Assembly: GCA_913055615.1 (NCBI GenBank)
Contig: CAJXKK010000021.1
Coordinates: 1-45,051 of the forward strand
DNA length: 45,051 bases
From: an uncultured Ectothiorhodospiraceae bacterium
Lineage (GTDB): Bacteria > Pseudomonadota > Gammaproteobacteria > XJ16 > Halofilaceae
Direction of reading: 5' to 3'
Positions 23,220-45,051 of this stretch are shown here, one piece after another. The position numbers and the translations under genes are program-made. Below the pieces are notes generated by a model. The model worked only from the letters and a program-made list of their open reading frames with translations. It searched no databases and was not told the origin of the DNA. The stretch's first letter is position 1, and every line of letters begins with the position of its first letter.

Positions 23220-23377
23220 TGACGTTTGAATCGATTCTTTGCCGCCGTTACAAGCATAATTTTTCCGCTGTAGACGGCTTATCCCCAGCTAACGAGGTCT
23301 ATCCCCCCCCTGGTACGGGCCGGTTACAACCATAAATTTGCCGAATATTCAGCGTACAACCATAAAGCTTCCGCGCG
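23220..23377. repeat. Left transposon end with four TnsB-type sites
   Basis: Motif copies, all reading left to right: a degenerate terminal one at 23224-23245, then starting at 23248 (TTACAAGCATAA), 23324 (TTACAACCATAA) and 23354 (GTACAACCATAA), each followed by a TnCCG-type stretch. The spacing (about 24, 76 and 30 bp) resembles Tn7's loosely spaced left end. Confidence 0.75.
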
Positions 23378-25175: not shown

Positions 25176-25213
25176 GACGTCCCTTGTGCTCTCGTTTCTT
25201 TATGCTTTCCTGA

Positions 25214-25231
25214 GCGCCCTTCTAAGGGCGC
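25214..25231. promoter_or_regulatory. Perfect palindrome between kwaA and the Xre-ImmA gene
   Basis: GCGCCCTT CT AAGGGCGC, 8-bp perfect arms, lies 38 bp upstream of the kwaA start. No T-run follows on either strand, so it looks more like an operator for Kiwa than an intrinsic terminator. Confidence 0.4.
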
Positions 25232-25304
25232 ATCAGCCCCACCTTTATCAACAATGAGACGATCGGTCACGCGCTTCTCTGCAGGAACGGGATCGGCGTT
25301 CCGC

Positions 25305-26378: not shown

Positions 26379-26386
26379 TAGTACCT

Positions 26387-27010
26387 CTACTTTTTAGACA
26401 CCGGGACGTCAGCATCGTCGATATCTTCGTATGGTGTTCTGGGACTTGGAACGGCTTCAAAGTTTTCGTTCGCGACGAAAATTCGCTGTGAGAACTCCTC
26501 GAATTGGTCCCCTTCGAATTCGGTTGGGCGTGAGACCTCGACGCGGACGGCGGATTCATCGGCAGCGACGCAAACCACCCACACTGTGGGCGTCCGACCA
26601 TGGGCGCTCACAGCCGAACCGAATAACTCCCCTTGCGCCGCTGCGACCAGCTGACGACACGCAGAGCCCTTTCCGGAGATCGCACGGGGGCTTCGTGTGA
26701 CGTCGCATGCAGCATCAACATTCTGAAACAGGAGCTGGACACCGAGGCCGTCATGGACAGTCGACTCGAGATTCTCAGCGCGAGAAAGGCGCCACCCTTC
26801 GGGCAGGAGACGCATGCGCATCTCTCTAAGGCCAAAATGGTATGACAACCAACCAGGTGCGCTCGCTGCATCGACAGATAGGGCTTCATTTCTTCCCGCA
26901 ACTGCTGCCCTAGCAATTCCGAGGACTGCTTCCCTTGAAAGCCCAATTCCAGCCAGCGCATGCGGAACGTCGTGCTCAGAGTTAATGATCGAGGGAGACG
27001 ATGGATCCAT
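26387..27010 (-). CDS. Unknown protein, partner of Xre-ImmA
   Basis: 207 residues, not recognised. It is soluble, with a moderately acidic C-terminus (TPYEDIDDADVPVSKK) and a central segment LFGSAVSAHGRTPTVWVVCVAADESAVRVEVSRPTEF that looks like a beta-rich fold. It precedes the Xre-ImmA gene by 8 bp on the same strand. A large palindromic operator lies right upstream, and no strong ribosome binding site is visible. It could be the effector of the pair, or the target of the protease. Confidence 0.7.
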   Translation of the reverse strand: MDPSSPSIINSEHDVPHALAGIGLSREAVLGIARAAVAGRNEALSVDAASAPGWLSYHFGLREMRMRLLPEGWRLSRAENLESTVHDGLGVQLLFQNVDAACDVTRSPRAISGKGSACRQLVAAAQGELFGSAVSAHGRTPTVWVVCVAADESAVRVEVSRPTEFEGDQFEEFSQRIFVANENFEAVPSPRTPYEDIDDADVPVSKK

Positions 27011-27800: not shown

Positions 27801-27989
27801 ATGAACAACGTCGGGCGGGAGCCCGGCAACCTTCTGCTCCGGCCCGCATCGCTCGCCTACCGCTGGGATGTGGTGGCTGCGCCCGGTCAGGTCATGGATA
27901 CCGTACCGTTCCGCGGCACGGGGGGAAGTTCCCTCGGAAGTGTTTTCCAGGAGCGCGACGATCCAGTGACTCGAGCTCGGTACCTATGA
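27801..27989 (+). CDS. Small ORF coupled to the Tus homologue
   Basis: 62 residues from the ATG at 27801 (GAGGGG lies about 10 bases upstream; ATG 27792 is an alternative start). Not recognised; no clear domain. Its stop overlaps the Tus homologue start as ATGA (27986-27989), which argues for a translated, coupled ORF. It could simply be a leader that feeds ribosomes into the tus-like gene. Confidence 0.5.
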   Translation: MNNVGREPGNLLLRPASLAYRWDVVAAPGQVMDTVPFRGTGGSSLGSVFQERDDPVTRARYL

Positions 27990-28942
27990 ACGCTAATGCC
28001 GCTTCGCACTTTTACCGAGAGCGGGCGGCTGCTTATGAGGCTTTTGAGGCCCTCCAGGAGGCCATCGAGGCCCTGCAGCGAGCAATCACTGCTGACACCG
28101 ATTGCCCGGCGCTGGTTCATGCGCTCCCGTACCAAAGCAAAACGGAGACGAGCGAAGCCGCTGGCATATCGAGCTGGAATGAACCGCCTCTGGAAGGACA
28201 AGCCGCGCGCGACCATGCGGCCGCCGAACTCGGGCGCCTGTGCTGCCATCCCGACCAGGATCCAAAGACCGTCACTCGCGCGCCCGGCGTGCTCGCGGCA
28301 TCGCCCGAGACGCTGGACGCCGCTGCGGCGGTCAACGCCGCCAAAAACGCCTTCTGGGAAGCGGCGCAGCAAATCTCTCCGCGACAACCAACGCGCGCCC
28401 GCGAATTGAACGACATGATCCCGCGCATCAGCCTGATGCAGGCCCGGCGCGAGATCAGCATCTGGGACGAAAAGCCGATGCGGGTCCACTTCACCTGGGC
28501 CGGACGCACAAGCTCGACGCGGACGCTGACTGCAGGAATGATGGATGGCGAGCTCGCGAAGCGGCTGCTCAGCAGTTCTCACAAGGGTTACGAACGCCCC
28601 GAATGGGAGTCGCTCATCCAGCAGTGTCGCGAGCGTCTCGCGGAACTTCCCGAAGATGAGCCTGTGGCCGTCCTTAACGTAATGGCGCCACACATACGTG
28701 CCCACCTGTATCTGCCAAATGAGCTGGGGCACGGGCCCGAGCGGAAGATGATCGCGACTCCGCTGCCGCTGCTGTATCCGGACGACGACCGCGGGCCGGC
28801 GGCGATCCAGCCATTGCCCGCCTTTGACCCTGGAGCGCAATCGGGCACACCGACGAGCCGACAGCTGGAGGACGAGCCCTTCATTCCCCACCTGCGGCTG
28901 TTCCGGTACCGCGACCATTCAGCCACCGAAGCCTCGGGGTAA
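27986..28942 (+). CDS. tus: Replication terminus-binding protein Tus homologue
   Basis: 318 residues against 309 for E. coli Tus. The family pattern runs along the whole length: the helical N-terminus with ALVHALP (Tus ARVFSLP), RAPGVL at 99-103 (Tus RLPGVL), IPRISLMQARREISIWDEKPMRVHFTW at 145-171 (Tus [26 protein letters not shown]), PEWESLIQQCRERLAELPED at 205-224 (Tus [21 protein letters not shown]), ATPLPLL and the end FIPHLRLF (Tus IIPRLHLY). Tus binds Ter sites and blocks DnaB from one side. By this alignment the residues that hold the flipped cytosine in E. coli (Phe140, His144, Gly149) become Ala138, Asn142 and Arg147, so DNA contact may differ. Convergent with the transposition operon. 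Confidence 0.85.
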   Translation: MNANAASHFYRERAAAYEAFEALQEAIEALQRAITADTDCPALVHALPYQSKTETSEAAGISSWNEPPLEGQAARDHAAAELGRLCCHPDQDPKTVTRAPGVLAASPETLDAAAAVNAAKNAFWEAAQQISPRQPTRARELNDMIPRISLMQARREISIWDEKPMRVHFTWAGRTSSTRTLTAGMMDGELAKRLLSSSHKGYERPEWESLIQQCRERLAELPEDEPVAVLNVMAPHIRAHLYLPNELGHGPERKMIATPLPLLYPDDDRGPAAIQPLPAFDPGAQSGTPTSRQLEDEPFIPHLRLFRYRDHSATEASG

Positions 28943-29179: not shown

Positions 29180-29629
29180 CTAGACGACAATCCCGTACTC
29201 GATGCGCCCGAGCAGCTGTTCGACGGCCTGGCCGCCGATTTCCCACCGCACAAGATCAATCGGCCGATACCAACCCAGTCCAAGGGCCGGCCGCACGACC
29301 CACCTCGAGGCGCGCTCGGGATCACCGAGCACCTCCTCCGCCCGACAAAGCACGCGAGCAGCCCGCCACAGACGTTCTGACTCGCTCGGACGCAATCGTC
29401 CCGTGCGCTTGCGGTGGGCGAGCGATCGCGTCCCGATCGCCAGGGCCGCACACAGGTCCGCGCGTGCGAGGGGAAATCGCTCGCTCAAATGCGCCACGGC
29501 ACGCGCGTCAAAGCCCCGCTCGACGGCCCGTATTACATCAAGCGTGCCAACGCTGTCGGCACCGATGGCCTCAGGCCCGCCCATGGCTGCGACGATCGCT
29601 GCATCGCTGATTGGCAACGGGCTACTCAT
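29180..29629 (-). CDS. MbcA/ParS/Xre antitoxin-like protein, orphan
   Basis: 149 residues. The C-terminal toxin-binding domain pattern is clear: AEEVLGDPERASRWVVRPALGLGWYRPIDLVRWEIGGQAVEQLLGRIEYGIV. The N-terminal half holds an Xre-like helical DNA-binding region. Such proteins normally pair with a RES-domain toxin, but none is nearby. Instead it is the last gene of the transposition operon and overlaps tniQ by 8 bp. A role in regulating or assisting transposition is more likely than classic toxin-antitoxin activity. Confidence 0.82.
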   Translation of the reverse strand: MSSPLPISDAAIVAAMGGPEAIGADSVGTLDVIRAVERGFDARAVAHLSERFPLARADLCAALAIGTRSLAHRKRTGRLRPSESERLWRAARVLCRAEEVLGDPERASRWVVRPALGLGWYRPIDLVRWEIGGQAVEQLLGRIEYGIVV

Positions 29630-31025
29630 GCGCCTGCCCCGCGATCACGGCGCCACCGTGGTTTGACCCCGACTGCTGAGGGGGCGCCTCCACATGGGCC
29701 TCGCGTATCATCTGCTGCCTGTGCCGTCGCAAATACGCCTGCACCTCCCGTCGCCGCAGATCGCCGGGACAGCACCCGGCCACCTCCCGCAGGTTCCGAT
29801 CCGAGGGATAGACCTCTCGCTCCCGGAGCTCGGCGCAAGCGGCGACGATGTTTCTCACGCGCCGGGCCTTGCGCGCCGCCGCTTCCAGGCGCCGGCGCTT
29901 GCGGAAACGCCGCACAACGCGATCGTATTCCTCGGGATAGTGATACTTGAACGACATCGGCCGGACATTGGCCTCGGCCGCGACCCGTGCCGCGCTCGGC
30001 ACGCCCGCAAGGGGGATTGAAAGCACCCGCTCGATCTTGCGCTCCAGGCGCTTCAGCTGGCGCTCGGTCAACGCCTGGCGCTCATAAAGCCCCGGGCGCG
30101 GCTGCGGGCGGATCGGCAACGACTCGAGCAGCGGATAACTGTCGAGCAGCATGTGGTCGACCGGGACATAGGTCCGATACGAGATCTCCCATACCGACGG
30201 GGGCGACGGGCGAAACGCCCCGTTTTTCCACTTGCGCATCACGTCCGGGGCTACGCCGAGCGTCGCTGAAGGATTGAAACCGCGACTGACGAGTTGGTCG
30301 GCGACGACCTCCACCCACCTCCGGAAGTGCTCGATCTCCAGATCCCGGCCCACCGCGCAGGTTCTCGCGATGAGCTGTTGAATCCCGCCTGCGATCCACA
30401 GCTCTCGGCCATCTGGTTGCGGCAGGCGCCTGACGTTGTGCTCCCGACTGATCAGGCTGGCCTCGCAACACCGGCATATCGACAGGAAGGGCCGTGTCGG
30501 AAGCGTCGCCTGGATCTGTCCACAGGCGTCACAGCAGGTCTTGAGGTAGATCCCGTGGTGGGGACAGGCCTGTACGCCTTTGAGCGTCCACAGCAGCCGG
30601 TGATAGGGCCACTCGGCGTCTGCGGCCCAGCACTCAGGGCACCATGCCAATTCGGTACGTACGAGGTAGTTCGGTTCCCAACCGAAGAGGGGCGACCACG
30701 CATCCAAGGTCAGGCGCCCATGGCCTTCCCTGGCGGCACCCGCGTCCAGCGCCCGGGCCGTTCGCCTTGCGCTCCGGCCGGTACCGTTGATCGTGTGGGC
30801 CGTGCAATCCTGCGTGGCCGATTTCCCGTGCGCCTGCGAGCCGAAGACCTCGGTAACGCGGCGAGCGAGCACCCGCGGCCCCATCTGCTGGCGGTGCGCA
30901 ATCCGCGTCAGCAAGCCCGTCAGCGATTCGATATCGCCGGTGCCATCGCCCCTGGGCGCGATCGGGCGGATGCTCGGCGCATGCGGGACGCGGGGGTCGC
31001 AATCGGCAATCGCAATGGAATCCAC
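29622..31025 (-). CDS. tniQ: TniQ/TnsD family target-selection protein
   Basis: 467 residues from a GTG at 31025, which has GGGAG eight bases upstream and follows the tnsC stop by 5 bp. Zinc-finger cysteines and histidines typical of TniQ/TnsD are CPEC (129-132), CPHH (154-157), CDAC (165-168) and CRCC (184-187). A basic helical C-terminal half (about 330-450) would bind DNA. TniQ/TnsD proteins choose the attachment site. The length, near TnsD (about 508), and the insertion beside tRNA-Phe suggest it recognises tRNA-Phe sequence directly. Confidence 0.9.
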   Translation of the reverse strand: MDSIAIADCDPRVPHAPSIRPIAPRGDGTGDIESLTGLLTRIAHRQQMGPRVLARRVTEVFGSQAHGKSATQDCTAHTINGTGRSARRTARALDAGAAREGHGRLTLDAWSPLFGWEPNYLVRTELAWCPECWAADAEWPYHRLLWTLKGVQACPHHGIYLKTCCDACGQIQATLPTRPFLSICRCCEASLISREHNVRRLPQPDGRELWIAGGIQQLIARTCAVGRDLEIEHFRRWVEVVADQLVSRGFNPSATLGVAPDVMRKWKNGAFRPSPPSVWEISYRTYVPVDHMLLDSYPLLESLPIRPQPRPGLYERQALTERQLKRLERKIERVLSIPLAGVPSAARVAAEANVRPMSFKYHYPEEYDRVVRRFRKRRRLEAAARKARRVRNIVAACAELREREVYPSDRNLREVAGCCPGDLRRREVQAYLRRHRQQMIREAHVEAPPQQSGSNHGGAVIAGQAHE

Positions 31026-31030
31026 GGCGC

Positions 31031-32116
31031 CTACTCCCAGTTCGGTGAGGTGTCTTTGGCGTGCCGGCGTGCATGGGGAATACCTGGCCGCGACCTGGGC
31101 TTCTGGCGGCACTGATCGGAGCCGGACCTCGCGGATTGGTCCTTCTTCGACAGGCCATAGACACCCCAGCGCTCCGCATCGTGGAGAGCGATTTCCGCAG
31201 CCATTGCCCGGAGGTCGTCCTCGTTGCGACGGGCCGACCAAAGTTGCTCGAGCGTGAGCGTGGCGCTACCCGCCTTGTAAGCCCGATAGGCTGCTCTGTA
31301 GAGCCAGCTCGACAGTATCCCGACACAGCCGCACGCACCCCAATGGAGTTCCCAGGCATGGCGGTCAATGTTGAAGGTGACCGGGAGCTCGGCCTTGTCG
31401 ACGATGTGGGCGAAAATATCCCGGAAGACTTTGACGCCCGCCTTGTCCGGGTAGTAGGGCGTGAACCGGACCAACTCGACGCGACGGGATATCTGGCCGC
31501 TGTAGCGCAGCATGTCCTCGGCCTCATAGGTGCCGACCAGGATGATCGGGACGTCCACGTTGGCCCGGTGCTGCTTGATGACGTCCAGATTGGATGCCTT
31601 TACGCGCCCCGTCGGTGAGGCCCCGATGTGCTGGCACTCGTCGATCACCACGGCCGGCGGCCGACGATCATTCAAGGCTGACTCGACCACACCTCCGAGC
31701 TCATCCGCGCTCACCGCTCGGTTGGCGATCGGCCGCGTCGCTCGACACATGCTCTGGTCAGCACGTGGGCGCAGGGAGACTTTGTCCGTGGCCCCGATCT
31801 CACCCATCGCTTCCAAGAGCTCGCGGTACATGATCTTCCAGCCGAACGGTGTGCCCTTGGCAACGGGCGCGCTGGCTACGACAAGAGGGCTCAAGTAGCG
31901 GCTTCCACCATCACGGTCGCAAAATGGCTCCATGACTTGCCGCACGTACTCGATCAACGTGGTCTTGCCCACACCGCTGGGCCCGACGATGACCAGGATC
32001 GAGTCCTTCTCGGCCAATTCAAGGTGTTCGAGCAGGGCGGCCTCCGTTTCTCTAAACACCGGATGCTCGACGACGATCCGCCCAAGCGCATTGAGCTGCG
32101 TTTGCGAGACAGCCAT
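31031..32116 (-). CDS. tnsC: TnsC/TniB family AAA ATPase
   Basis: 361 residues. Walker A is GPSGVGKT (45-52) and Walker B AVVIDECQ (155-162), followed by a sensor segment IILVGTYEA. TnsC polymerises on target DNA and links the target selector to the transposase. It is shorter than Tn7 TnsC (about 555) and closer to TniB-type ATPases. The ATG overlaps the tnsAB stop (TGATG), so translation is coupled. Confidence 0.93.
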   Translation of the reverse strand: MAVSQTQLNALGRIVVEHPVFRETEAALLEHLELAEKDSILVIVGPSGVGKTTLIEYVRQVMEPFCDRDGGSRYLSPLVVASAPVAKGTPFGWKIMYRELLEAMGEIGATDKVSLRPRADQSMCRATRPIANRAVSADELGGVVESALNDRRPPAVVIDECQHIGASPTGRVKASNLDVIKQHRANVDVPIILVGTYEAEDMLRYSGQISRRVELVRFTPYYPDKAGVKVFRDIFAHIVDKAELPVTFNIDRHAWELHWGACGCVGILSSWLYRAAYRAYKAGSATLTLEQLWSARRNEDDLRAMAAEIALHDAERWGVYGLSKKDQSARSGSDQCRQKPRSRPGIPHARRHAKDTSPNWE

Positions 32117-34758
32117 CACTTCAGTCTCGTCGCGGAGAACGTGGACGTCAGGTGCGTAGGCCGATCGTCGTGATCCTCTCCTCTTTGGCTCGCGCCTTGG
32201 GGCTGGTCGTTTGGAGTGATCGACTCCGGGATTCCGCCCGGGCGGTCCGTGAAACGGGCGAGCCCCGCCTCGGTCTCCCGAATCTTGCGCGCGAAATCGA
32301 TCCACTTGTTGGTCGGGTTGCGATACTGGCGGCCCGAGTTGCGGGCCCTACCGGCGACCTCGATCATCAGATGCCGAACCCGGCGTTCTCGTGCCTGCCG
32401 CAACAGATCGCTGGTGGTGACGCACTCGTACCACTGGTCGCGGATGTAGGCGTACACGTAGGTCGGATCGTAGGGGTCGTACCGGACCGGCACGGAGTCA
32501 CCGTTGTGGTTCGTTGCCGCGACACCCATGGGGCGGTACTGCAGATGGTTCACCCGGATCTGGCCCTGCCGAATCACCCGCGACTCCCCATCCACTGCAG
32601 GGAGGGTGAGGATGAAGAAGTGCATGTCGTACTGGATGTGGACGTTATTGGGGGTGCCGGTCTCGGCGAGCGACTCCCGAAACAGCCGCGACGGTGTGTC
32701 GTGTATTCCAGTATGCCGGCGCTCCGGATAGACCTGGTGCAGATATTCCTCTAACAGGTCATCCAATGCGTCCGGTGTCCAGATCGCCTGCCCTTTCGGA
32801 TCGTGACTCCGGCTCAACGAACGATCCAGGTCCCGGTTGGTGGTGCTGCCGGTCAGCTGACGTATAACCTCCTGTTCCGTCGTGCCGAACATGCTCTCGA
32901 CGACGCTACCGTGGCGAGGGCTTCCCGGCGGTCGCCGGACGAGCTCGACCTCGAACCGAACGAGCAGCTGCTCCAGGTACAGCGAGTGAAACTCGCGCCC
33001 GTGGTCGACGATCATCCGCTGAGGAAGACGGTGATGCCGCCGCACGCACTCGCGCATCAGGATCATCAGCACCCTTACGGATGGATCTTCGAGGGTCAGG
33101 CAGTGAGCCAGGACGATCCGAGAGTAGGCGTCCTGCATTATGGACAACCAAGCCGTCCCTATGGACTCGCCGGTGATCGCCGAGACAAGCTCGACCGGCA
33201 GTACCGTGTGGTCGATGTGGGCCAACTCGAAGGCGCGATCCCCGTGGGGCGGCAGATGGGCGTCACCCTCCCGATCGTGGGGACTCTCCGGGCCAAGCTG
33301 GTATCGGGCTTTCGCGCCACTCCGAGCCTGTACAAGACGTCCCTGATCAAGATCAGCCGCCATTTTGCGATATCGCTCATAACTGACCGCTTCGACGACT
33401 GCGTCTTTAGTCCGGGAGAGATAGTCGACATAGGCCGCGCGCACGCTTCGGGCGCCGTTACGCCCGTAGTCCTCCCATAGTGACCGGACAAGTAATTCAT
33501 GGGCCTCGGTCGATATTCGCGGCACGGCGTTGCCCCGCCGGTGCTCCATCCCCATCAATCCGCGCAAACCATCGCCATACTGCGTTGACGCTTGGGCGTA
33601 ACGCCGCGCCCACTCCCTTAAGGTTCGTGTGGCGTTATAGTTCTCCGGCCACTTCTGCCCAGACTTCCACGCCTGCAGGGCGCGGGCACGGTGAACGGCG
33701 CGTTTAATCTGCTTTGGTGATGCTTGCCGGCGCAACGCGTCGATTCGGTCAACATCGCTCTTCGGCATCGCAAGGGCCTGCAATTCGCCGCACCGGATCA
33801 ATGCTCCGCACGCCTCGGATGAAAGTGTTTGTATATCGCCAGCATCGTCCTGGAGCGTATAGGCGGACTCACCGGCATTGATTACCCGCCAACCGACACC
33901 CTGCCAAACCAGTTTTGCGCCTTTCTCCAAACGGACCTCCGCGGGCTCATCCCCTTGTCTCGACGACGCCACGAAGTGAGCGGCATCCGAATAGATGGGA
34001 TCGGCGTAAACACAGACCTCCGGGTCATTGGGCAGCAAATCGTCCCAGAACCGAAAGTAAATCGCTCGATGGGCTATCGCGTAGCGGACGGCTTCGATAC
34101 CGAATTCGTTATCTAGATCGGCTATTCTTAGGGTCTTGCGCTGCTCGACACGGCCCACGATCTCCTTGATCGCGTCACCTTGTTCCCCGGTGGGTTGCGT
34201 ACGGAAATACTCCCAAAGATATCTAGCATTGCGCAGGAACCGGATGTCCGGTTTTTCAACCACGCAGACGCGATAGTTAACTCCCAGGTGGGAGGCCGCC
34301 TCCTCGCCCGCCGGGGACCTCCAGCCGGCCTCCTCATCGTAGGTAATCCGGTCGGGCCATTTGCAGGCGCGCTGCTCGGCCTGATTCGGGGTCGTCACCT
34401 CCACAAGGTCGATGCCAGCGTCATGAATGAGTAGATAGTCCGGCGTATGGCGACTTCCGGTGCGTCTGCCTGTTTTCGAGCGATACCGGAGCCTGACCGT
34501 GGTGGGTTGACAGTAGTAAGCGCGGACCCGCTCGTCCCACTCCCATTGAATCAGCGTGGCCAACTCTCCGTACTGGCTCTCGGCCTGCACGCTGCGTTGC
34601 ATCAGGCGCGAGGGAAATTGAGCGGAAACATGGCCACGACTTCCACCCACTCGACGCACAGGCTGACCGCGGCAGATGCGGTCGACGAACGCACGCGCGC
34701 CTGTCGAGAGATTCAGGTCGTCGTACAAGTGCGATATTTCGCCGTCGTGAATGGACAT
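32116..34758 (-). CDS. tnsAB: Fused TnsA-TnsB transposase
   Basis: 880 residues. The N-terminal TnsA nuclease region (about 55-215) has E65, then HTPDYLL (Asp107) and LVEVTT (Glu120, with Thr122 at the position of the catalytic lysine). The TnsB part has the DDE integrase triad: Asp516 in AHIDHT, Asp585 in IVDHGREF and Glu621 in VESMFGTTEQE, then a TnsB C-terminal domain. TnsB cuts and joins the 3' ends; TnsA cuts the 5' ends. With the lysine replaced, 5' cutting may be impaired, which would favour copy-in cointegrates. AGGGGAGAAAT before the ATG supports the start at 34758. Confidence 0.93.
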   Translation of the reverse strand: MSIHDGEISHLYDDLNLSTGARAFVDRICRGQPVRRVGGSRGHVSAQFPSRLMQRSVQAESQYGELATLIQWEWDERVRAYYCQPTTVRLRYRSKTGRRTGSRHTPDYLLIHDAGIDLVEVTTPNQAEQRACKWPDRITYDEEAGWRSPAGEEAASHLGVNYRVCVVEKPDIRFLRNARYLWEYFRTQPTGEQGDAIKEIVGRVEQRKTLRIADLDNEFGIEAVRYAIAHRAIYFRFWDDLLPNDPEVCVYADPIYSDAAHFVASSRQGDEPAEVRLEKGAKLVWQGVGWRVINAGESAYTLQDDAGDIQTLSSEACGALIRCGELQALAMPKSDVDRIDALRRQASPKQIKRAVHRARALQAWKSGQKWPENYNATRTLREWARRYAQASTQYGDGLRGLMGMEHRRGNAVPRISTEAHELLVRSLWEDYGRNGARSVRAAYVDYLSRTKDAVVEAVSYERYRKMAADLDQGRLVQARSGAKARYQLGPESPHDREGDAHLPPHGDRAFELAHIDHTVLPVELVSAITGESIGTAWLSIMQDAYSRIVLAHCLTLEDPSVRVLMILMRECVRRHHRLPQRMIVDHGREFHSLYLEQLLVRFEVELVRRPPGSPRHGSVVESMFGTTEQEVIRQLTGSTTNRDLDRSLSRSHDPKGQAIWTPDALDDLLEEYLHQVYPERRHTGIHDTPSRLFRESLAETGTPNNVHIQYDMHFFILTLPAVDGESRVIRQGQIRVNHLQYRPMGVAATNHNGDSVPVRYDPYDPTYVYAYIRDQWYECVTTSDLLRQARERRVRHLMIEVAGRARNSGRQYRNPTNKWIDFARKIRETEAGLARFTDRPGGIPESITPNDQPQGASQRGEDHDDRPTHLTSTFSATRLK

Positions 34759-35849: not shown

Positions 35850-38800
35850 CTAATGCTTATGCGCCGCTTCGGCGTCGCGCTCTTGGTCGCGAATAATCTG
35901 TAACACGACCCGAGCGAATGCGTTTAATGTCTCGGGGCGCTCCAGCGTCTCCGATGCGAGCTTTTCGTGGTCGTTCATGCTATCGATGATGATCTGCTCG
36001 AGGACACCGGGATAGCGGCCCCTCATCATCTGGTCGTCCGAGTGGGTGCGTGCCTGATCACGAACCGTCTCATCCCTGCGGACCCGTTCTGCGAGATTCT
36101 GTGCCCAGTCGAGTTTGTCCCGGTCGTCGACCTCCGCACCGAATAGGTCGTTGAGGCGTTGGATAATCTCCGCCAGGCGCTCCTGCTTTGGGTCGCGGGC
36201 TTGACCGGATCCCACGTCAGTCCCCGGCTTTAGCGTGTAATCACCCTCTTCCACACCGAGCTGGATGCGGTGCTCGGCACGCTTGTTGAGCCGGTAGTGG
36301 CTCAGTTCCAGCTCGGACAAGTCGATATCCTCGTCGCCCAGCCGGCGGGTCTGGAGCAGGGGATGGAGGTGACGGGCGTAGACGCAGAGGGCTTCGAGTT
36401 CCCGATCGTCGAAGTGGATGACCTGTGACAGGAATTCGTAGATTCGTATGAAGCTCTGCAGGTCCTTGCGGAAGGTCTCCAGCGCGTCGCGGGTCTCGCC
36501 GGCCTCCTTGAGTTCGTGTTCGGCGCGCTGGGCGCCGGCGCGGTCGTCGCGGGCCTCCGCCTGTTTCTTCTCGTGTTGCCAGTGACGCACGCGCTCAGTG
36601 GCGTCCTCGTACTGAGTGCGGAAGCGCTGACGCGCGGGTTCGACCCAGTAGGAGAGCTTCGAGGATTTCGCCTTGTCGTCGAAGAACGCGAGGGCGAAGG
36701 CCTCGACCTCGTGCCACTCGAATATGCGGGCCTCGGTCAGCTTGCGCTGCAGGTCGTAGACCACGTTCGGGTCGGAGACGTCGGTCAGCTCGGCGGTGTT
36801 GTAGTAGGGCTCGAAGGCGGCGCGGATGTCGTCGGCGTCGTTGACGAAGTCCAGCACGAACGGGGCGTCCTTGCCGGGGAAGGTCCGGTTCAGGCGCGAG
36901 AGAGTCTGCACGCAGTCGACGTCCTTGAGCTTTCGGTCGACGTACATCGCGCAGAGCCGGGGCTGGTCGAAGCCGGTCTGGAACTTGTTGGCGACGATCA
37001 TGACGTTGTAATCGTCGGTGTCGAACGCCTCGCGGTGGTCGCGGCCCCGGAGTTCGGGGTTGAGGTGGTGGCTCGTCTCCGTGACCTCCATGGGGATGTA
37101 CTCGTCCGCGGGCACGCTGCCGGAGAAGGCGACCAGCGGGTGGACGTCCTCGTAGCGACTCTCGCGGATGTATTTCTCCGCGGCGAGTTGGTAGCGCACG
37201 GCCTCCTGCCGGCTGCCGGTGACGACCATCGCCTTGGCCTGGCCGTCGAGCAGGTGGCGCACGTTGGCGCGGAAGTGTTCGACGATCACCTCGACCTTCT
37301 GCTCGATGTTGTAAGGGTGCAGCCGCACCCAGCGCGCGAGCTTCGTCGAGGCCTCGCGGGCGTCCACCTCGTGGGCGTCGGCATGGGGGTGCGCGAGCTT
37401 CCAGGCGGCCTTGTAGGTGATGTAGTTCTTCAGCACGTCGAGGATGAACTCCTCCTCGATCGCCTGGCGCATGGAATAGACGTGGAATGGCTCGGGCTTG
37501 TTGTCCGGGCCCGCCAGGCGGTCGGCGTGGGGCGGGCGGCCGAACAGTTCCAGCGTCTTCGCCTTGGGCGTGGCCGTGAAGGCGTAGTAGCTGATCCGTT
37601 CCGTCGGCCGGCGGGCCTCGACGGCCGCGTCCATCAGCTCCTCGGCGCTGACCTCCTCGCCCTCCGGGCGTTCCACGCCCAGGATGCTCTTGAGCTTCGT
37701 CGCGGAGGAGCCGGTCTGCGAGGAATGCGCCTCATCGGCGATGACGGCATAGGTGCCGGCCTGCAGTTCCGGGTGCTCGCCGAGCGCCTCGAACAGCGCC
37801 GGGAAGGTCTGGATCGTGACGATGATGATCCGGGTACGCGATTTCAGCGCCTCCGCGAGCTGCGCCGACTTGCTCTCGTTGCCCTCGTCGCGAGTGATCG
37901 GGCGGACGACGCCGCTGGCGTGCTCGAACTGGTAGATCGTGTCCTGGAGCTGGGAATCCAGCACCGTGCGGTCGGTGACGACCACGACGGAATCGAAGCG
38001 CTTGTTGCCTTCGTCGTCGTAGAGCGCGGCGAGCTGGTGCGCCGTCCAGGCGATGGAGTTGGATTTGCCCGAGCCCGCGCTGTGCTGGATCAGGTAGCGC
38101 TGGCCCGGCCCCTCGGCCCGCGTGGTCTCGATAAGCCGGTTGACCGCCTCCCACTGGTGGTAGCGCGGGAAGATCAGGCTTTCCTTCGTGTGCCAGCGGC
38201 CATGGAAGTCCTGCCACTTCGTCTTTTCCAGGTGCAGGAAGCGCCCGAGCAGGTGCAGCCAGGCATCCGGGGCGAATACCTGCTTCCAGAGGTAGTCGGT
38301 GGCGTAGTCGTCCTCGGAGGCGGGCGACGGATTGCCGGCGCCGCCGTCGGACGTGCCCCGGTTGAAGGGCAGGAACTTCGTCTCCCGGCCCTGCAGGCGC
38401 GTAGCCATCGCCACGGCGGACTGGCTGACGGCGAAATGCACCAGCGCGCCGCGCTTGAAGGTCAGCAGCGGCTCCGCCTTGCGCGTCTTCGGATCGGTCG
38501 CCGGCCGGTCGCGCTGGTACTGGCGGATCGCCTGCTCGACCGCCTGTTTGAACTCGCTCTTGAGCTCCAGCGTCGCCGTCGGCAGGCCGTTGACGAACAG
38601 CACCAGGTCCAGGCGCGGGTTGTACTCGCCCTCGCGGCAATGCGGCGAGTACGAGACCTCCGGCACCACGCGCAGCCGGTTCGCCCGGTACTGCGCCAGC
38701 GCGTCCTCGTTCATCCCGTGGTCGGGGCGGAACGAGCACAGCGTCACCCGCGCGCCCGGTACCTTGAAGCCGTGGCGCAGCACCTCCAGCGTGCCGGCCT

Positions 38801-39032
38801 TCTCCAGCTCGCGGGCAGTCTTGTCGAGCAGGACGGTCTCGGGATCATGCGGGTTGTGGCGGCAGAAACGTTCCCACTGGTCCGGGTGGGCCTCGCGGTA
38901 GTAGGCGAGGAGGTCTTCGGGGTAGAGGGCGCGCTGGCGGTCGTAGTTCGCCGAATCGCCGGCATGCCAGCCGGAGACGGCAAGCTGGTCGATAATGTCC
39001 TGCTGGAATTGCTGCTCCCTGGCATCAGCCAT
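35850..39032 (-). CDS. hsdR: Type I restriction enzyme, R subunit
   Basis: 1060 residues. The N-terminal nuclease domain has RLDLVLFVNGLPTATLELKSEF (PD-ExK type). The helicase has Walker A YLIQHSAGSGKSNS, Walker B VIADEAHSSQ and the later motif FQTGFDQPRLCAMYVDR. It translocates and cuts unmethylated DNA as part of HsdR2M2S1. The start overlaps hsdS by 8 bp. Last gene of the right-hand defence operon. Confidence 0.97.
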   Translation of the reverse strand: MADAREQQFQQDIIDQLAVSGWHAGDSANYDRQRALYPEDLLAYYREAHPDQWERFCRHNPHDPETVLLDKTARELEKAGTLEVLRHGFKVPGARVTLCSFRPDHGMNEDALAQYRANRLRVVPEVSYSPHCREGEYNPRLDLVLFVNGLPTATLELKSEFKQAVEQAIRQYQRDRPATDPKTRKAEPLLTFKRGALVHFAVSQSAVAMATRLQGRETKFLPFNRGTSDGGAGNPSPASEDDYATDYLWKQVFAPDAWLHLLGRFLHLEKTKWQDFHGRWHTKESLIFPRYHQWEAVNRLIETTRAEGPGQRYLIQHSAGSGKSNSIAWTAHQLAALYDDEGNKRFDSVVVVTDRTVLDSQLQDTIYQFEHASGVVRPITRDEGNESKSAQLAEALKSRTRIIIVTIQTFPALFEALGEHPELQAGTYAVIADEAHSSQTGSSATKLKSILGVERPEGEEVSAEELMDAAVEARRPTERISYYAFTATPKAKTLELFGRPPHADRLAGPDNKPEPFHVYSMRQAIEEEFILDVLKNYITYKAAWKLAHPHADAHEVDAREASTKLARWVRLHPYNIEQKVEVIVEHFRANVRHLLDGQAKAMVVTGSRQEAVRYQLAAEKYIRESRYEDVHPLVAFSGSVPADEYIPMEVTETSHHLNPELRGRDHREAFDTDDYNVMIVANKFQTGFDQPRLCAMYVDRKLKDVDCVQTLSRLNRTFPGKDAPFVLDFVNDADDIRAAFEPYYNTAELTDVSDPNVVYDLQRKLTEARIFEWHEVEAFALAFFDDKAKSSKLSYWVEPARQRFRTQYEDATERVRHWQHEKKQAEARDDRAGAQRAEHELKEAGETRDALETFRKDLQSFIRIYEFLSQVIHFDDRELEALCVYARHLHPLLQTRRLGDEDIDLSELELSHYRLNKRAEHRIQLGVEEGDYTLKPGTDVGSGQARDPKQERLAEIIQRLNDLFGAEVDDRDKLDWAQNLAERVRRDETVRDQARTHSDDQMMRGRYPGVLEQIIIDSMNDHEKLASETLERPETLNAFARVVLQIIRDQERDAEAAHKH

Positions 39033-40362
39033 ATGACGCTCCCTCTTCCGCCGCGCACGGTAACTCCAGTTCGTCCGACGACATCCGTTGAACCCAGTTG
39101 CGCACGTCGATTTTCCCAGTAACGGCCGCTGAAATCGTGGCGTGGCGTCGCTCCCGAAGCAATTCGATTGACCGGTTCGCGGTATGCATCAGCGTTTCAT
39201 ACTGATGCTGGCGCTCCGAAATCCAGTCCACGATTTCCTTCTGCTCATCAATGGGTGGAGTGGGAACGAGAAGCTCACGGACAACGTACTGACCAATGTT
39301 CAACATCGAACTGCTTGCGCCGGTTGCTTCGAATTCGATCTCCCGTCGCGGGTGTTGGGTCTGAAGGTATGCGGAAAGAAACGCTGGAATGCACGCTGTT
39401 TCATTCAAGCGAATGCGATAGAGTTTGTCGGACACCATGAGGCGGTCATGGTCGCGTTCGACGACCGCGGCACTTCCGACGAGCTCGCGCGTGTTTGCCC
39501 TCGATACCAAGAGGTCGCCAGCGCGTACGGTTAGCTTAGAAATGCCTTCCAGTTCTTCCGGTAGCCGCTTATTCTCGTTCGGGCGAAACATGCCGCCGTT
39601 AACCGCTCCGACTTTTAATACCGCCCAGTCACTGTCATCTCGCGCAGGTGTGTTCTCGCACTGGGGGCTCCAGCCCTGCTCGAATTCCCGGATTAGAAAT
39701 TTCGCTTTCGTCAGACGCCAGTGCTCGGGGATAGTCGGGAGATCCGAAATTTCCGTTTCGCGTTTTGGCGCGATCGGGTCGAGCCCCTTGGTTACGCTGT
39801 CGGCTAGACTTGTATGAAGTTCCTCTTTGAGTAGAGCGATAAGCCGCTGCTGTTCCTCGATAAGCGCGTCGATTCGGGCGGTTTCGTGGTCGAGGAAGTC
39901 GGCGATAACCGTTTGTTCTGTAAGAGGCGGCTGTGGCAAGTAAGTATCAGATAAATCCTCTTGCGCCACGCTGGGCAGAGCAGTGTTGGTCGATATGCGC
40001 CCAAATGGAATGATCGACCCTGTATAAAACAGAAATCGCGGGTCAGTATTTCGATGAACTACTGTGTAGAACATGGTGTCCACAGTCCAAAAGGAGCCGG
40101 ACACCAGAAGCGGACGATCTACGGTTCCCTTTCGACCGAATAGAACGGACTCGCCGCTATAAAGGTAAGCGGATGACCGAGCGAATTCGCCACCTGATCC
40201 AATTACTGGGTAGGGGCCGGCCGTTTCTTCGACCTCCTTGTAGTCCCGACCATTACGGACTGTAGCGAGTCGCTTGAGGGGGACGGCCCACCAGTGCTCG
40301 GGTAGCTCACCGAGATAGTCAATAGAGGGTGCCGAGTATTGGGGATAAGCGGGGAAACTCAT
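39025..40362 (-). CDS. hsdS: Type I restriction enzyme, specificity subunit
   Basis: 445 residues. Two target-recognition domains, each followed by a conserved coiled helix: AQEDLSDTYLPQPPLTEQTVIADFLDHETARIDALIEEQQRLI and NIGQYVVRELLVPTPPIDEQKEIVDWISERQHQ. HsdS decides the DNA sequence that is methylated or cut. It overlaps the upstream GIY-YIG gene by 4 bp and hsdR by 8 bp. Confidence 0.95.
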   Translation of the reverse strand: MSFPAYPQYSAPSIDYLGELPEHWWAVPLKRLATVRNGRDYKEVEETAGPYPVIGSGGEFARSSAYLYSGESVLFGRKGTVDRPLLVSGSFWTVDTMFYTVVHRNTDPRFLFYTGSIIPFGRISTNTALPSVAQEDLSDTYLPQPPLTEQTVIADFLDHETARIDALIEEQQRLIALLKEELHTSLADSVTKGLDPIAPKRETEISDLPTIPEHWRLTKAKFLIREFEQGWSPQCENTPARDDSDWAVLKVGAVNGGMFRPNENKRLPEELEGISKLTVRAGDLLVSRANTRELVGSAAVVERDHDRLMVSDKLYRIRLNETACIPAFLSAYLQTQHPRREIEFEATGASSSMLNIGQYVVRELLVPTPPIDEQKEIVDWISERQHQYETLMHTANRSIELLRERRHATISAAVTGKIDVRNWVQRMSSDELELPCAAEEGASYG

Positions 40363-41246
40363 GACTCAGCTTCCGTTTCCTCGACTTCGCTGCCGGAACG
40401 TTCAACTAGCTGATTGAGTTTGCGTCCGTCGTCGGCACGCCACTCGCGCCAACCATTCGCGTTTCGGAAGATAACCGCGCAAGCGGCCCCACTCGGGGAC
40501 CGGAAAACATAGTCTCGAGCGAATACTGGGACGTTCCCATCCCATTCAAGGACGCCTTGTTCGACCAGACGTTCCCGTTGTCTATGCAGAGCGTCGGGTG
40601 TTGCAGCGTTCGTCGGTTCTGCAGCGCAGCGCGAACCCTTGAAGACGACCATGCCCTCGGAGGTGAGCGTTCCATTCGCGTTTGCACCACGTGCTCGGCA
40701 GTACACGGTCTGTGCTTTGTCGACCTGACCGGCACTAGGGAGAGCGTCGAAGACGGGGAAGCCCACCGTGCCGATCAGGATCTGAATGGTGTCCAGAATC
40801 TCTTCGCAGTCCGCCTGCAGGGGCGGCGGGGTGTGCGGGCGTGTGCCCTTGTTGCCGTTCTCGATCTCGAATCGGCCCGCTGATCGCGCGAACTCGATGG
40901 AGCGGGATTCCAGATACCGCGCGTGGGTGTCGGTCATAGTGTCCGTGAGCGAGACTACGATCAGGGCGCGGTCCCAGAAGGCCTTGTTCTGGTCGTGGCT
41001 GCCGAGACGACCGCCGACGTTGCCGCTCTGGCCGACGTAGCAGGAGGTGGAGCCGCTCGCATCGTCGGCGCTGAACAGGAAGTAGAGCCCGACCTGGCCG
41101 GCTTCGGGGAATTCCCGGAACCGGCCGAGCAGGCTGCGCGGCACGTCGAACAGGCGGATGGTGCGCGTCGTCAGTTCGGCGACGCGGACGCCGTGCGGGT
41201 CGCCGTCGGGCAGGAAGATCTGGATGGTTCTCGGTCGGGCGTTCAT
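40359..41246 (-). CDS. GIY-YIG nuclease domain protein
   Basis: 295 residues. The nuclease core is VGLYFLF (GLY at 53-55) and CYVGQSGNVGGRLGSH (YVG at 70-72, Arg80), with a later catalytic Glu in YLESRSIEFA. The C-terminal part resembles a DUF4357-type domain (GAACAVIFRNANGWREWR). Such proteins are often carried inside type I restriction operons; the exact role is unknown. It overlaps abiF and hsdS by 4 bp each. Confidence 0.88.
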   Translation of the reverse strand: MNARPRTIQIFLPDGDPHGVRVAELTTRTIRLFDVPRSLLGRFREFPEAGQVGLYFLFSADDASGSTSCYVGQSGNVGGRLGSHDQNKAFWDRALIVVSLTDTMTDTHARYLESRSIEFARSAGRFEIENGNKGTRPHTPPPLQADCEEILDTIQILIGTVGFPVFDALPSAGQVDKAQTVYCRARGANANGTLTSEGMVVFKGSRCAAEPTNAATPDALHRQRERLVEQGVLEWDGNVPVFARDYVFRSPSGAACAVIFRNANGWREWRADDGRKLNQLVERSGSEVEETEAES

Positions 41247-42223
41247 TCCGACTCCATCGTTCCAGGGCCACCCGTCGCCCCGCGCCAGAACGGATCGGTG
41301 GACCAGTCCGCGGGGAAGCCCATGTGGGGGCGCGATGGTGCGGGATGGCGTTCGAGCAGGGCCACGAGGCGTTGCGACCAGCGGCTGGACGGTGCAACGA
41401 CCTGCATCAGCGCCTCGATGGTGGCGACGAACATGTACAGACGGCGTCTCGGGTCGACCTGTTGTTCGGGGTGCGCGGCACTGCCGGCGTCGATCCGGTG
41501 CGGGATCCGTGGCCAGGGACGCCTGATCCGGCGGGGTGTCTCGGGGCGGCTGCCGAACTCACGGTTCCACACGCGGCCGTGATGCGCGCAGGTGTTGCGC
41601 AGATCGGACATGGCGCGAAACCAGGATTTGAGCAGAGGGAATTTCCAGCCGAAGTGCTGCTCGATGCGCTGGGTATCGGCGGGCTGGCGGAGGTTCGCGA
41701 ACAGGGTCGAAACCTCCTTGAAAGTCAGCAGCTCAACGGCCATCCAGATCGGCGGCTGCTGGGGCGCATTTGTGTATTTCGTCCGGTAGTGCGCGAGAAA
41801 GGTCTCGACCTCGCGGCCCTGGCCGGCCTGCTCGAGCTGGTTCAGCAACCACGCGTGGTTGTACCGGGTATCAAATATGCGGGGGTCCAGATAGCCGTGG
41901 GCGCCGTGGTGCTCGGCCAGCGTGTTCGCCAACTGGGCCCGGAGGGCGACTTCGATCCGCTCGATGGCGTCGAGCAGGAGCAGCCGGAGTTCACGGTCGA
42001 AGACGTACAGGTCGAGGATGTCCTCGAAAGAGGTGCCCGTCAGGAATCGGTGCTCGTCGAGGTCCGGCCGGTAGTAGGGCCGCGTGTAGGCCGAGAGCCG
42101 GAAATAGCTGATATTGGACAGGTAATGCCGGGCGCGCGCTTCGTCCGGGATTTCCAGGCCGCGCTCGCGGAGCGTTTCGAGGTGCTGATCGACCGTCTGG
42201 GCGGGTTTTCGGAAGTCGTTCAT
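41243..42223 (-). CDS. abiF: Abi_2 (AbiD/AbiF) family HEPN abortive-infection protein
   Basis: 326 residues. The N-terminus reads YLSNISYFRLSAYTRPYY, then the family core FDRELRLLLLDAIERIEVALRAQLA and the HEPN RNase motif LRNTCAHHGRVWN (Arg209, His214). HEPN proteins of this family are RNA-cutting toxins that abort phage infection. The C-terminal part is Arg/Pro-rich and less conserved. It lies between hsdM and the GIY-YIG gene in the restriction operon, and a structured RNA element lies just upstream. Confidence 0.9.
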   Translation of the reverse strand: MNDFRKPAQTVDQHLETLRERGLEIPDEARARHYLSNISYFRLSAYTRPYYRPDLDEHRFLTGTSFEDILDLYVFDRELRLLLLDAIERIEVALRAQLANTLAEHHGAHGYLDPRIFDTRYNHAWLLNQLEQAGQGREVETFLAHYRTKYTNAPQQPPIWMAVELLTFKEVSTLFANLRQPADTQRIEQHFGWKFPLLKSWFRAMSDLRNTCAHHGRVWNREFGSRPETPRRIRRPWPRIPHRIDAGSAAHPEQQVDPRRRLYMFVATIEALMQVVAPSSRWSQRLVALLERHPAPSRPHMGFPADWSTDPFWRGATGGPGTMESE

Positions 42224-42240
42224 GGACGGCCTCCGGACAC

Positions 42241-42444
42241 AAAAAACCCGCCAAAGTGTGCTTCCGTGAGAGGCATGGCGGGTATGTTGGTAACTACGTT
42301 ATAACGCCCATGCCCGTACGTCAAATTCGGCCTCGGTGCGCGTGTGGGCGCAAAGGCGTCGAGACCCGGGCGCTGGCAGCCCTCCAAAGAGAAAAGTAAC
42401 CCGCCGGTTTGAGGGTGACGGCGATCGCAGAGTCTTGGCGGGTT
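42241..42444 (-). ncRNA. Candidate structured small RNA upstream of abiF
   Basis: In a 316-bp gap in an otherwise overlapping operon, the minus strand has two hairpins with the same stem: AACCCGCC pairs with GGCGGGTT at 42437-42444 and 42398-42405 (31-nt loop), and ACCCGCCA with TGGCGGGT at 42276-42283 and 42246-42253, followed by T(6). The second is an intrinsic terminator 18 bp before abiF. Related AbiF toxins have been described with RNA antitoxins, so this may be an RNA antitoxin. The 5' end is not defined. Confidence 0.55.
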
Positions 42445-42539
42445 TTGTCCTGCCGGATTCTGACGGTGGCCGCGCCGGTCGGCAAGCCCGCGCCGGACCG
42501 TTGGGCCGCGAAGCCCATTCCTGGTGGTTACAGCCCCCA

Positions 42540-44510
42540 TCACGCCGACAACTCCTCGATCATCCGCTTGATCCGGTCCGTGCATTCGCGCAGGTCGGCG
42601 TCGATCTCTTCCAGCGGCCGGGGCGGCTTGAATTCGTAGAAGTGGCGGTTGAACGGGATCTCGTAGCCGACGATGCCGATCTCGCCGTCGTGCGGGTCAC
42701 GCTTACTCTCGTCGATCCACGCGTCCGGGACGTGCGGGCGGACCTCGCGCTCGAAGTAGTCGTGGACGGATTCGCCAAGCGGGACGTTCTCCTGGTCGCG
42801 CAGGTCGGTGTCCGGTTCGCGGTTGCCCTTCTTGTCCGTGCAAGGCGGGGCGTTTTCGTCGCGCTCGGACAGGGCGTTGAGGATGGCTTTGCGGACGGGC
42901 GCGCGGGGTTTGAGGCCCTCGGCCTTGAGGGCGGCGTCGAGGTCGCCGGCGAAGGTGTCGCGGTCGGTGACCGGGGCGTCGGCCGTGAGGCGGCGGCACG
43001 CGGCCTCGATTCGCTCGCGCTCGGCGTCGTCCAGTTTCTGGAGAGGTTTCTCGTCCGCGAGGCGCTGGATGCGTTCCTCGCTGGCCTGGAAGTTCAAACG
43101 CAGTGGGCGCTCGACGGTGATGCGGCGGTAGCCGAAGGCCTCGGTCGGGAAGACCTTGCTCTGCTTGCTCTCTTCCATCCGGCCGTAGAGCTGGACGGCG
43201 GCGTCGATCTGCTTGTCGTCCAGCCAGCGGCGCTTGCTGCCAAGGGACTTGCGCATCTTCTCGTAGTCGTTGACGGCGTTGATGAGCTGAACTTTGCCAC
43301 GGCGTTCTTTCGGCTTCTTGTTGGAGAGGACCCAGACGTAGGTTGCGATGCCGGTGTTGTAGAACATGTCCGTCGGCAAGGCGACGATGGCCTCCAGCAG
43401 GTCATTTTCCAGCAGGTAGCGGCGGATCTCGGACTCACCGCTGCCGGCGCCGCCCGTGAACAGTGGTGAGCCGTTCAAAATAATGCCGATGCGGGCCGGG
43501 CCATGCTTCGGCTCGGCCATCTTGCTGACCTGGTGGAGCAGGAACAGCATGGCCCCGTCGTTGACGCGCGGCAGGCCGGGACCGAAGCGGCCCTGGTATC
43601 CGCGCTCCTCGTGCTCACGGGTGACGGTTTTCTGCACGCCCTTCCAGTCGACCCCGAAGGGCGGATTGGCGAGCAGGAAGTCGAAGCGCTCGTCCGCGTG
43701 CTGGTCGTCGGAGAGGGTGTTTCCCAGCTTGATGTTGTCGATCCGCTGGCCCTTGATGAGCATGTCCGCCTTGCAGATGGCGTAGGATTCGGGGTTGAGT
43801 TCCTGGCCGTAAAGAGAGACATCCGCGCCCTCGCTGATCGAGCGGATGTAGGCCTGGCTCTCGGACAAGAACCCCCCGGTACCCGCAGCCGGGTCGTAGA
43901 TCGAGACAATACTGCCGGGCTTGAGCCGCTCCTGCTGGCCAGTAAAAACCAGCGATGTCGTCAGATGGACCACATCGCGAGGGGTGAAGTGCTCGCCGGC
44001 AGTATCGTTCGAGGCCTCAGCAAACTTGCGGATCAGCTCCTCGAAGACCACCCCCATCCCGAAATTGTCCAGCCGCTCGGGGCTGAGGTCCGTACTGGCA
44101 AAACGCTGGACAACCGCGTACAGGATGTCAGCGGCCTCCAGTCGATCCACAAATTCTTCGAACTTGAAGTAGTCGAATATTTCCCGGGCTTCCGGGCTGA
44201 ACCGTTGGACGTAGCTGAGCAGGTCCTGCCGGGTCTGCGTGTCGGAAAGTGAACTCAGGGTGAGCTTGGAGGTATTGTAGAACTGCTGCCCCGAGGCCTT
44301 GTGCAGGAGCTTGTGTTGGACGCCCTCAGGCCGGTCCTTGTGCTGCTCGGCGGCCCTGCGAACCTGGTCACGGGTTGGCTCCAGAACACACTCGAGCCGG
44401 CGAAGGATAGTGAACGGCAGGATGACTCGGCCGTACTGGGACTGCCTCAGATTGCCGCGGAGCAGGTCCGCGACCTGCCAGAGAAACCCTGCGAGGTTCT
44501 CCTGATTCAT
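42540..44510 (-). CDS. hsdM: Type I restriction enzyme, methyltransferase subunit
   Basis: 656 residues. HsdM N-terminal domain, then SAM motif DPAAGTGGFL and catalytic NPPFGV (LANPPFGVDWK), the adenine N6-methyltransferase pattern. The protein is longer than typical HsdM (about 500-530) because of a C-terminal extension containing YFEREVRPHVPDAWIDES and YEFKPPRPLEEIDADLRE, an arrangement also known in fused HsdM variants. First gene of the minus-strand restriction operon. Confidence 0.95.
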   Translation of the reverse strand: MNQENLAGFLWQVADLLRGNLRQSQYGRVILPFTILRRLECVLEPTRDQVRRAAEQHKDRPEGVQHKLLHKASGQQFYNTSKLTLSSLSDTQTRQDLLSYVQRFSPEAREIFDYFKFEEFVDRLEAADILYAVVQRFASTDLSPERLDNFGMGVVFEELIRKFAEASNDTAGEHFTPRDVVHLTTSLVFTGQQERLKPGSIVSIYDPAAGTGGFLSESQAYIRSISEGADVSLYGQELNPESYAICKADMLIKGQRIDNIKLGNTLSDDQHADERFDFLLANPPFGVDWKGVQKTVTREHEERGYQGRFGPGLPRVNDGAMLFLLHQVSKMAEPKHGPARIGIILNGSPLFTGGAGSGESEIRRYLLENDLLEAIVALPTDMFYNTGIATYVWVLSNKKPKERRGKVQLINAVNDYEKMRKSLGSKRRWLDDKQIDAAVQLYGRMEESKQSKVFPTEAFGYRRITVERPLRLNFQASEERIQRLADEKPLQKLDDAERERIEAACRRLTADAPVTDRDTFAGDLDAALKAEGLKPRAPVRKAILNALSERDENAPPCTDKKGNREPDTDLRDQENVPLGESVHDYFEREVRPHVPDAWIDESKRDPHDGEIGIVGYEIPFNRHFYEFKPPRPLEEIDADLRECTDRIKRMIEELSA

Positions 44511-44875
44511 GCTCCCCCCTGATTTCAGTCGCCCCGGCCTGATAGGGCCTGCGCAGGGTAGCGAGTCTGGGCTAGTCGACGCCCAGTTGCCAAATGTGCT
44601 GGACGCACGCTTTGGAGCATGGCCGATTCAGGTGCTGGGCGTCACATCGACGGAATATTGCGAGGTGCGGATAGCCGGTCGATGCCCGCTGGGAGCGACC
44701 GCACTCAGTTTGATCCCGGACTTTGCGGAACGAGGAGGAACGAGGGGGAACGGAGATGGAGATAGCCCCCGCCGCCGCAAGGACGACGTTTCAGCCAAAG
44801 AACCAAGTCTCAGAGGCGACACGGCCACCGGATTCCTTCTTTGTGCCTGCCGGACGGTCTATGGGATGGACTGAA
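44511..44875. other. Non-coding stretch upstream of hsdM
   Basis: No gene seen; open frames here lack support. It should hold the promoter of the restriction operon on the minus strand. It leads into the right transposon end. Confidence 0.35.
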
Positions 44876-44950
44876 TTACAAGCAAATGTCTGCCACGCGT
44901 TCATTACAAGCATAACGCTGCCGCGCGGCAAAGTTATGGTTGTAACGTCA
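44876..44950. repeat. Right transposon end with three TnsB-type sites and a 42-bp palindrome
   Basis: Copies start at 44876 (TTACAAGCAAAT) and 44904 (TTACAAGCATAA) reading left to right, and one runs from 44945 leftward (TTACAACCATAA on the minus strand). The last two share the core GCCGCGCGGC and form a 42-bp palindrome (44904-44945) with 12 of 13 arm bases matching. Terminal bases are AACGTCA at 44944-44950, the inverse of TGACGTT at the left. Confidence 0.75.
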
Positions 44951-44975
44951 GGTCGTGGATATAACGAGGGGGAAA

Positions 44976-45051
44976 TGGTGGCCAGGGACAGAATCGAACT
45001 GCCGACACCGCGATTTTCAGTCGCGTGCTCTACCGACTGAGCTACCTGGCC
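44976..45051 (-). tRNA. tRNA-Phe (GAA)
   Basis: Reading the minus strand, the 76-nt sequence starts GGCCAGG and ends CCTGGCC ACCA with a perfect 7-bp acceptor stem. The anticodon loop is CTGAAAA between CGCGA and TCGCG, giving anticodon GAA. The T arm GTTCGATTC is present and CCA is encoded. The window ends exactly at its first base. It is the target-side flank of the transposon. Confidence 0.97.

Follow-up and report, generated by a model that had tools for sequence, protein, structure and literature searches.

End repeats of a Tn7-like transposon carrying a tus homologue: TnsB-type sites whose resemblance to Ter is most likely coincidental

The end repeats of the Tn7-like transposon found in the window (the whole stretch of 45,051 nucleotides analyzed here) carry a motif reminiscent of the Ter sites of Escherichia coli, and this resemblance has most likely arisen by chance from sites of the TnsB type. 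We assign a probability of roughly 0.87 to the reading in which the repeats are sites for the TnsAB transposase of the element, their likeness to Ter is coincidental, and the tus homologue transported by the element is cargo that does not act through them. A sequence-only reading of the same DNA had noticed the Ter core TTGTAAC in the repeats and had proposed two explanations, namely, that TnsB sites happen to resemble Ter or that the Tus homologue binds the ends, possibly blocking forks or competing with TnsAB. The genes of the element and the adjacent tRNA gene are as follows.

23220-44950, no strand: Tn7-like transposon, 21.7 kb; putative boundary drawn from shared termini and an end architecture as in relatives
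23696-27010, minus strand: defence cargo kwaB, kwaA (Kiwa), rmrA, rmrT
27986-28942, plus strand: divergent Tus homologue, 318 amino acids, PF05472; convergent with tniQ
29180-29629, minus strand: Xre/MbcA/ParS-type antitoxin (NF049845, PF09722); adjoins tniQ
29622-31241, minus strand: TniQ/TnsD-like target selector, 539 amino acids (Pfam)
31031-32305, minus strand: TnsC/TniB AAA+ ATPase, 424 amino acids (Pfam)
32116-34758, minus strand: TnsAB fusion transposase, 880 amino acids, with TnsA-like N-terminal, rve and Mu-transpos_C domains
35850-44510, minus strand: defence cargo comprising type I restriction-modification genes, PDC-S14-like and AbiD-like
44976-45051, minus strand: tRNA-Phe (GAA), the insertion landmark; the right end of the element lies 25 bp past the tRNA 3' end

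The gene set is that of Tn7-like elements of the TnsAB type, with TnsA and TnsB domains, a TnsC ATPase and a TniQ/TnsD protein; the TnsA_N Pfam score (20.8) is under the gathering score of 26.5, and the TnsAB alignment spans the full length. Each end contains several repeats of the TnsB type, inverted and asymmetric, with TG termini, and the attachment site is represented by tRNA-Phe, at the above-mentioned distance from the element. Both termini start with TGACGTT and have 18 of 25 bases in common. The tetranucleotide GGTC is present on both outer flanks (23216-23219 and 44951-44954), where it could correspond to a duplication of at best 4 bp, compared with the 5 bp expected of Tn7-like elements; no clean empty site was found in the same genus, and 5.8 kb of unrelated genes follow tRNA-Phe in the congeneric genome G155. 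No RES-type toxin gene adjoining the Xre/ParS antitoxin was recognized by eye in the list of open reading frames. The sites identified at the two ends are listed below.

23220-23244, plus strand: L1, terminal left TnsB-type site, TGACGTTTGAATCGATTCTTTGCCG; core degenerate, with a spacing of 23 to L2 as in relatives
23247-23267, plus strand: L2, TnsB-type site, GTTACAAGCATAATTTTTCCG; TTGTAAC on the minus strand
23323-23343, plus strand: L3, TnsB-type site, GTTACAACCATAAATTTGCCG; GTTGTAAC on the minus strand
23353-23373, plus strand: L4, TnsB-type site, CGTACAACCATAAAGCTTCCG; without TTGTAAC
44875-44894, plus strand: R3, weak TnsB-type site, ATTACAAGCAAATGTCTGCC; direct repeat of R2, placed as in the right ends of relatives
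44903-44923, plus strand: R2, TnsB-type site, ATTACAAGCATAACGCTGCCG; TTGTAAT on the minus strand
44926-44950, minus strand: R1, terminal right TnsB-type site, TGACGTTACAACCATAACTTTGCCG; contains TTATGGTTGTAAC, the plus strand of 44934-44946

The sequence GTTACAACCATAA occurs in two exact copies, at 23323-23335 (plus strand) and at 44934-44946 (minus strand), one inverted with respect to the other, with near-copies beginning at 23247, 23353 and 44903 and a degenerate copy at 44875. When up to 3 mismatches were allowed, 6 matches were obtained versus 1.8 expected, a count reached in 1 of 100 shuffles, and in the whole host genome the four exact copies of TTACAASCATAA are all located at the two ends of the element. 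The TTGTAAC core is indeed present in the end repeats, as the sequence-only reading had maintained, and its three copies in the window (23247-23253 and 23323-23329 on the minus strand, 44940-44946 on the plus strand at the right end) all fall within them; the range that had been given for the motif, 44922-44945, does contain it, except for the C of TTGTAAC (44946), which lies one base beyond. As a bare 7-mer, TTGTAAC is found 3 times versus 0.88 expected, and 3 or more copies are seen in 10 of 100 shuffles; the tally of the 7-mer is within chance, and the repeat itself is non-random. Only three of the six repeats present TTGTAAC, with TTGTAAT in two others and TTGTAC in one.

Relatives of TnsAB were collected by an alignment-based scan, which returned 80 loci with 25 to 32% identity, reaching up to 10 kb on either side of tnsAB and not always spanning the whole element. 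They derive from cyanobacteria, Firmicutes, Acidobacteria, Chloroflexi, Desulfuromonadaceae, Paraburkholderia and others, Proteobacteria included; within 10 kb of tnsAB, none of these loci was found to contain tus. Close relatives of TnsAB were found neither in samples of the class (369 genomes) and of the phylum (398 genomes) nor in plasmids or viral contigs. Single-protein scans of genome and viral contigs gave no match; only the alignment scan succeeded. Three single matches of viral contigs to the pattern GTTACAASCATAA..TTKCCG, without tns genes, were treated as chance.

In 50 of these TnsAB elements, which lack tus, the core AA[CG]CATAAnnT..CC is common to 178 sites, an invariance that is partly by construction because the core served to find the sites; the spacing, the terminal TGT and the distance to the tRNA, by contrast, do not depend on it. 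In particular, the four sites of the left end are spaced by 23/76-78/30 in the relatives versus 23/76/30 in the window (23229, 23252, 23328 and 23358), and 34 of the 50 listed relatives have TGT at their terminus, a position that was left out of the scoring. At the right end, relatives and window alike have a pair of direct sites plus a terminal site in inverted orientation, about 27 apart. The end of the element is 27 to 32 bp from the 3' end of a tRNA or tmRNA gene in eight relatives (L004, L023, L044, L050, L058, L065, L068 and L082), versus 25 in the window. Site layout and distances agree with what has been reported for CyCAST, homing 30 to 33 nt from tRNA-Leu (PMC10293859), for the ends of VchCAST, with an 8-bp terminus and TnsB-site architecture (PMC10201428), and for Tn7-like elements, which insert beside tRNA genes (PMC8649781). 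The recurrence of core, spacing, layout and tRNA distance in the relatives identifies the repeats, on sequence grounds, as TnsB-type sites to which TnsAB would putatively bind. Thus, the first of the two proposed explanations is well supported, since the repeats agree in core, spacing and orientation with the end sites of many TnsAB elements that have no tus nearby. The core of L1 is degenerate (AATCGATT); weak L1 cores were also noticed in several relatives, and therefore this feature need not signal an immobile element. As for the tRNA distance, L050, L068, L023 and L082 are found 27 to 31 bp past tmRNA genes instead of tRNAs.

It is possible to outline how such sites would work. The TnsAB of the element would bind the end repeats, with a binding expected to depend on AACCATAA, and the four left and three right sites (two direct, one inverted terminal) would let TnsAB pair the ends, while the TniQ/TnsD-like protein, together with TnsC, would pick the target downstream of tRNA-Phe. 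The recognition core is shared among the elements and the preceding 5 nt are element specific, here (G/A)TTAC; GTTAC followed by AA reads TTGTAAC on the opposite strand, and its match of 7 to 8 nt with the Ter core would be coincidental. As for the Tus homologue, it would not act via the repeats, most likely representing instead "mobile" cargo next to defence genes.

The 7-mer in fact spans two parts of the repeat, with AA contributed by the shared core and GTTAC by the 5' flank, and it occurs in this element because this flank is followed by the AA of the core, read on the other strand. In the elements without tus, the mean identity of the 5-nt flank is 0.60 within and 0.39 between elements; that of the window flank is 0.78, and among 33 tus-less elements 3 reach this value or a higher one. 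Neither GTTAC nor TTAC precedes the core in any of the 178 sites, and the GTTAC prefix is unique to the window element among the 51 compared. The position equivalent to C6 (-5) is occupied in the window repeats by G, G, C, A, G and, in R3, A, so that the C6-equivalent base is kept in three of six, whereas TAC is constant. TTGTAAC is, as far as these alignments go, particular to the window element, and the remainder of the repeat is not. Given the absence of the flank from the 178 tus-less sites and its above-average conservation, a second constraint may possibly act on it. The check that had been proposed, that is, whether TTGTAAC occurs only with tus, is formally suggestive (the 50 tus-less elements have it in none of their 178 sites), but it cannot carry weight because the comparison includes one tus-bearing element and the flank is element specific also where tus is absent; with a single tus-bearing element, the association of tus with TTGTAAC is indistinguishable from chance.

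The comparison with E. coli TerB (AAGTATGTTGTAACTAAAG) showed that the longest shared run is of 8 nt, GTTGTAAC; to this extent the match noticed from the sequence alone holds, while the longer one that had been put forward requires an extra G. Runs of 7 nt are shared with TerB in 6 of the 50 tus-less elements, and column-shuffled sites share at least 8 nt with it in 1.1% of cases. R1 and L3 differ from the Ter consensus AGNATGTTGTAAYKAA by 6 and 7 mismatches, respectively, and no match within 3 mismatches is present in the window. In eight genomes and plasmids with a non-enteric tus, the Ter core ATGTTGTAAC is not enriched over the reversed control. A Ter-like site at the tus promoter was also considered and rejected, since neither TTGTAA nor TTACAA is found inside the tus open frame or within 500 bp upstream of it.

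That the element encodes a Tus homologue, as had been stated, was confirmed by the match to PF05472 (E value, 5e-16; 59 bits versus a gathering score of 22), with residues 18 to 305 aligned on positions 4 to 295 of 296. The NCBIfam equivalog cut-offs for Tus are not reached (57.7 of 323 bits and 17.2 of 178.3 bits), and the identity to E. coli Tus is about 20%. In E. coli Tus, C6 is held by F140, H144 and G149 (PMC10331603); opposite these residues the alignment places a gap, D and R in the window protein, although at about 20% identity its details are uncertain. The three residues are likewise unconserved in 14 other non-enteric homologues. With the C6-holding residues absent by alignment, the core not enriched, the C6 base in three of six repeats and a poor agreement with the consensus, nothing indicates that the protein recognizes TTGTAAC. 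A search of PDB sequences with the Tus homologue gave no match, and a single-sequence AlphaFold model (pLDDT, 43) was set aside.

Relatives of this tus homologue occur on Pseudomonas, Halomonas and Nevskiales plasmids. Genes for Tus have been split into resident and mobile ones, the latter often on plasmids (Galli et al. 2019, PMC6549158), and our literature search found no report of tus inside a Tn7-like transposon. No TnsAB was found near other tus genes in 27 tus loci, where weak TnsC and TniQ matches turned out to be ATPases and an HTH protein. The gene of the window is most likely one such "mobile" tus that travels with the defence genes as cargo, which is the simplest interpretation.

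A binding of the Tus homologue to the end repeats, by which it would halt forks entering the element, shield the TnsAB-bound ends from replication or compete with TnsAB, is in our judgment highly unlikely. It would account for the confinement of TTGTAAC, within the window, to three end sites of the very element that carries tus, and for the GTTAC prefix that no other compared element has. All three perfect copies, moreover, share an outward polarity, with the C6 side toward host DNA; this polarity, however, is explained by the inverted arrangement of the ends. The partial retention of the C6 base, the mismatches of R1 and L3 to the Ter consensus, the absence, by alignment, of F140, H144 and G149 and the behavior of ATGTTGTAAC in the other tus-bearing genomes also argue against binding, so that the second explanation of the sequence-only reading gained no positive evidence and met with several points to the contrary.

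It could also be hypothesized that tus serves the transposon independently of the ends, stalling forks or recognizing terminators and steering insertion to replicating DNA in a TnsE-like manner. Tn7-like elements co-opt fork-linked selectors, and TnsE, which has PriB-like domains, targets forks (PMC10293859); tus adjoins the tns operon inside the element, and mobile tus genes are known, many of them on plasmids (PMC6549158). Nevertheless, tus is on the opposite strand and outside the tns operon, is absent from the loci of the 80-odd relatives, has TnsAB beside it in none of the 27 other loci and is surrounded by ordinary defence cargo. By analogy with TnsE, a fork-linked role is possible, with the position of the gene as its sole positive support, and we deem this reading very unlikely. 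A scenario in which the transposon recruited a mobile Tus homologue that recognizes either the end repeats of the element (GTTACAAC) or forks that have stalled, thus coupling transposition or protection of the element to replication, appears very unlikely as well.

With the fused-TnsAB Tn7-like elements (relatives of CAST I-B2/I-D and CRISPR-less TnsAB-TnsC-TniQ elements), the element of the window shares the gene set of TnsAB fusion, TnsC and TniQ/TnsD, the insertion about 25 to 32 bp past the 3' end of a tRNA or tmRNA (30 to 33 nt in CyCAST, PMC10293859), the AA[CG]CATAA end sites with kept spacing and the defence cargo. Different from them, it is gammaproteobacterial, with no CRISPR genes noticed, its TnsAB is only 25 to 32% identical to the relatives found, it features the GTTAC flank and a tus homologue, and its tns operon is inverted with respect to most of them. 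The Tus-Ter fork trap of E. coli has in common with the window the Pfam family and the 8 nt of TerB, but the protein is divergent, under the equivalog cut-offs and unconserved at the aligned C6 residues, and the sites lack the remainder of the Ter consensus. The "mobile" tus genes, scattered on plasmids and chromosomes (PMC6549158), are likewise divergent and without conserved context, whereas the one described here sits inside a Tn7-like transposon.

If Tus did bind the ends, a fork barrier linked to transposon ends, and with it a new control of transposition, would be at hand. On the preferred reading, the end repeats are ordinary TnsB-type sites, and greater interest attaches to tus, which is probably cargo and whose occurrence on a Tn7-like element is hereby put on record. 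The site grammar of this widespread TnsAB family (core, spacing and tRNA/tmRNA distance) may serve as a null model for look-alike motifs.

Some further features of the locus could be noticed. The tns operon (29622-34758) runs from the tRNA/right-end side toward the left-type end, while most relatives show the opposite arrangement, with the left-type end upstream of tnsAB; L012, L071 and L072 resemble the window. An intergenic REP-like dispersed repeat is located upstream of the left end (~22974-23137); it recurs dozens of times in the host genome, as it does in G155. In the latter (contig 9, locus L132), the interval between tRNA-Phe and thrC contains, in place of the transposon, the 5.8 kb of other genes, named by eye as a GntR-type regulator, an aldehyde dehydrogenase, a hydroxyacid dehydrogenase-like protein and a substrate-binding protein; insertions may therefore favor this site as a hotspot.
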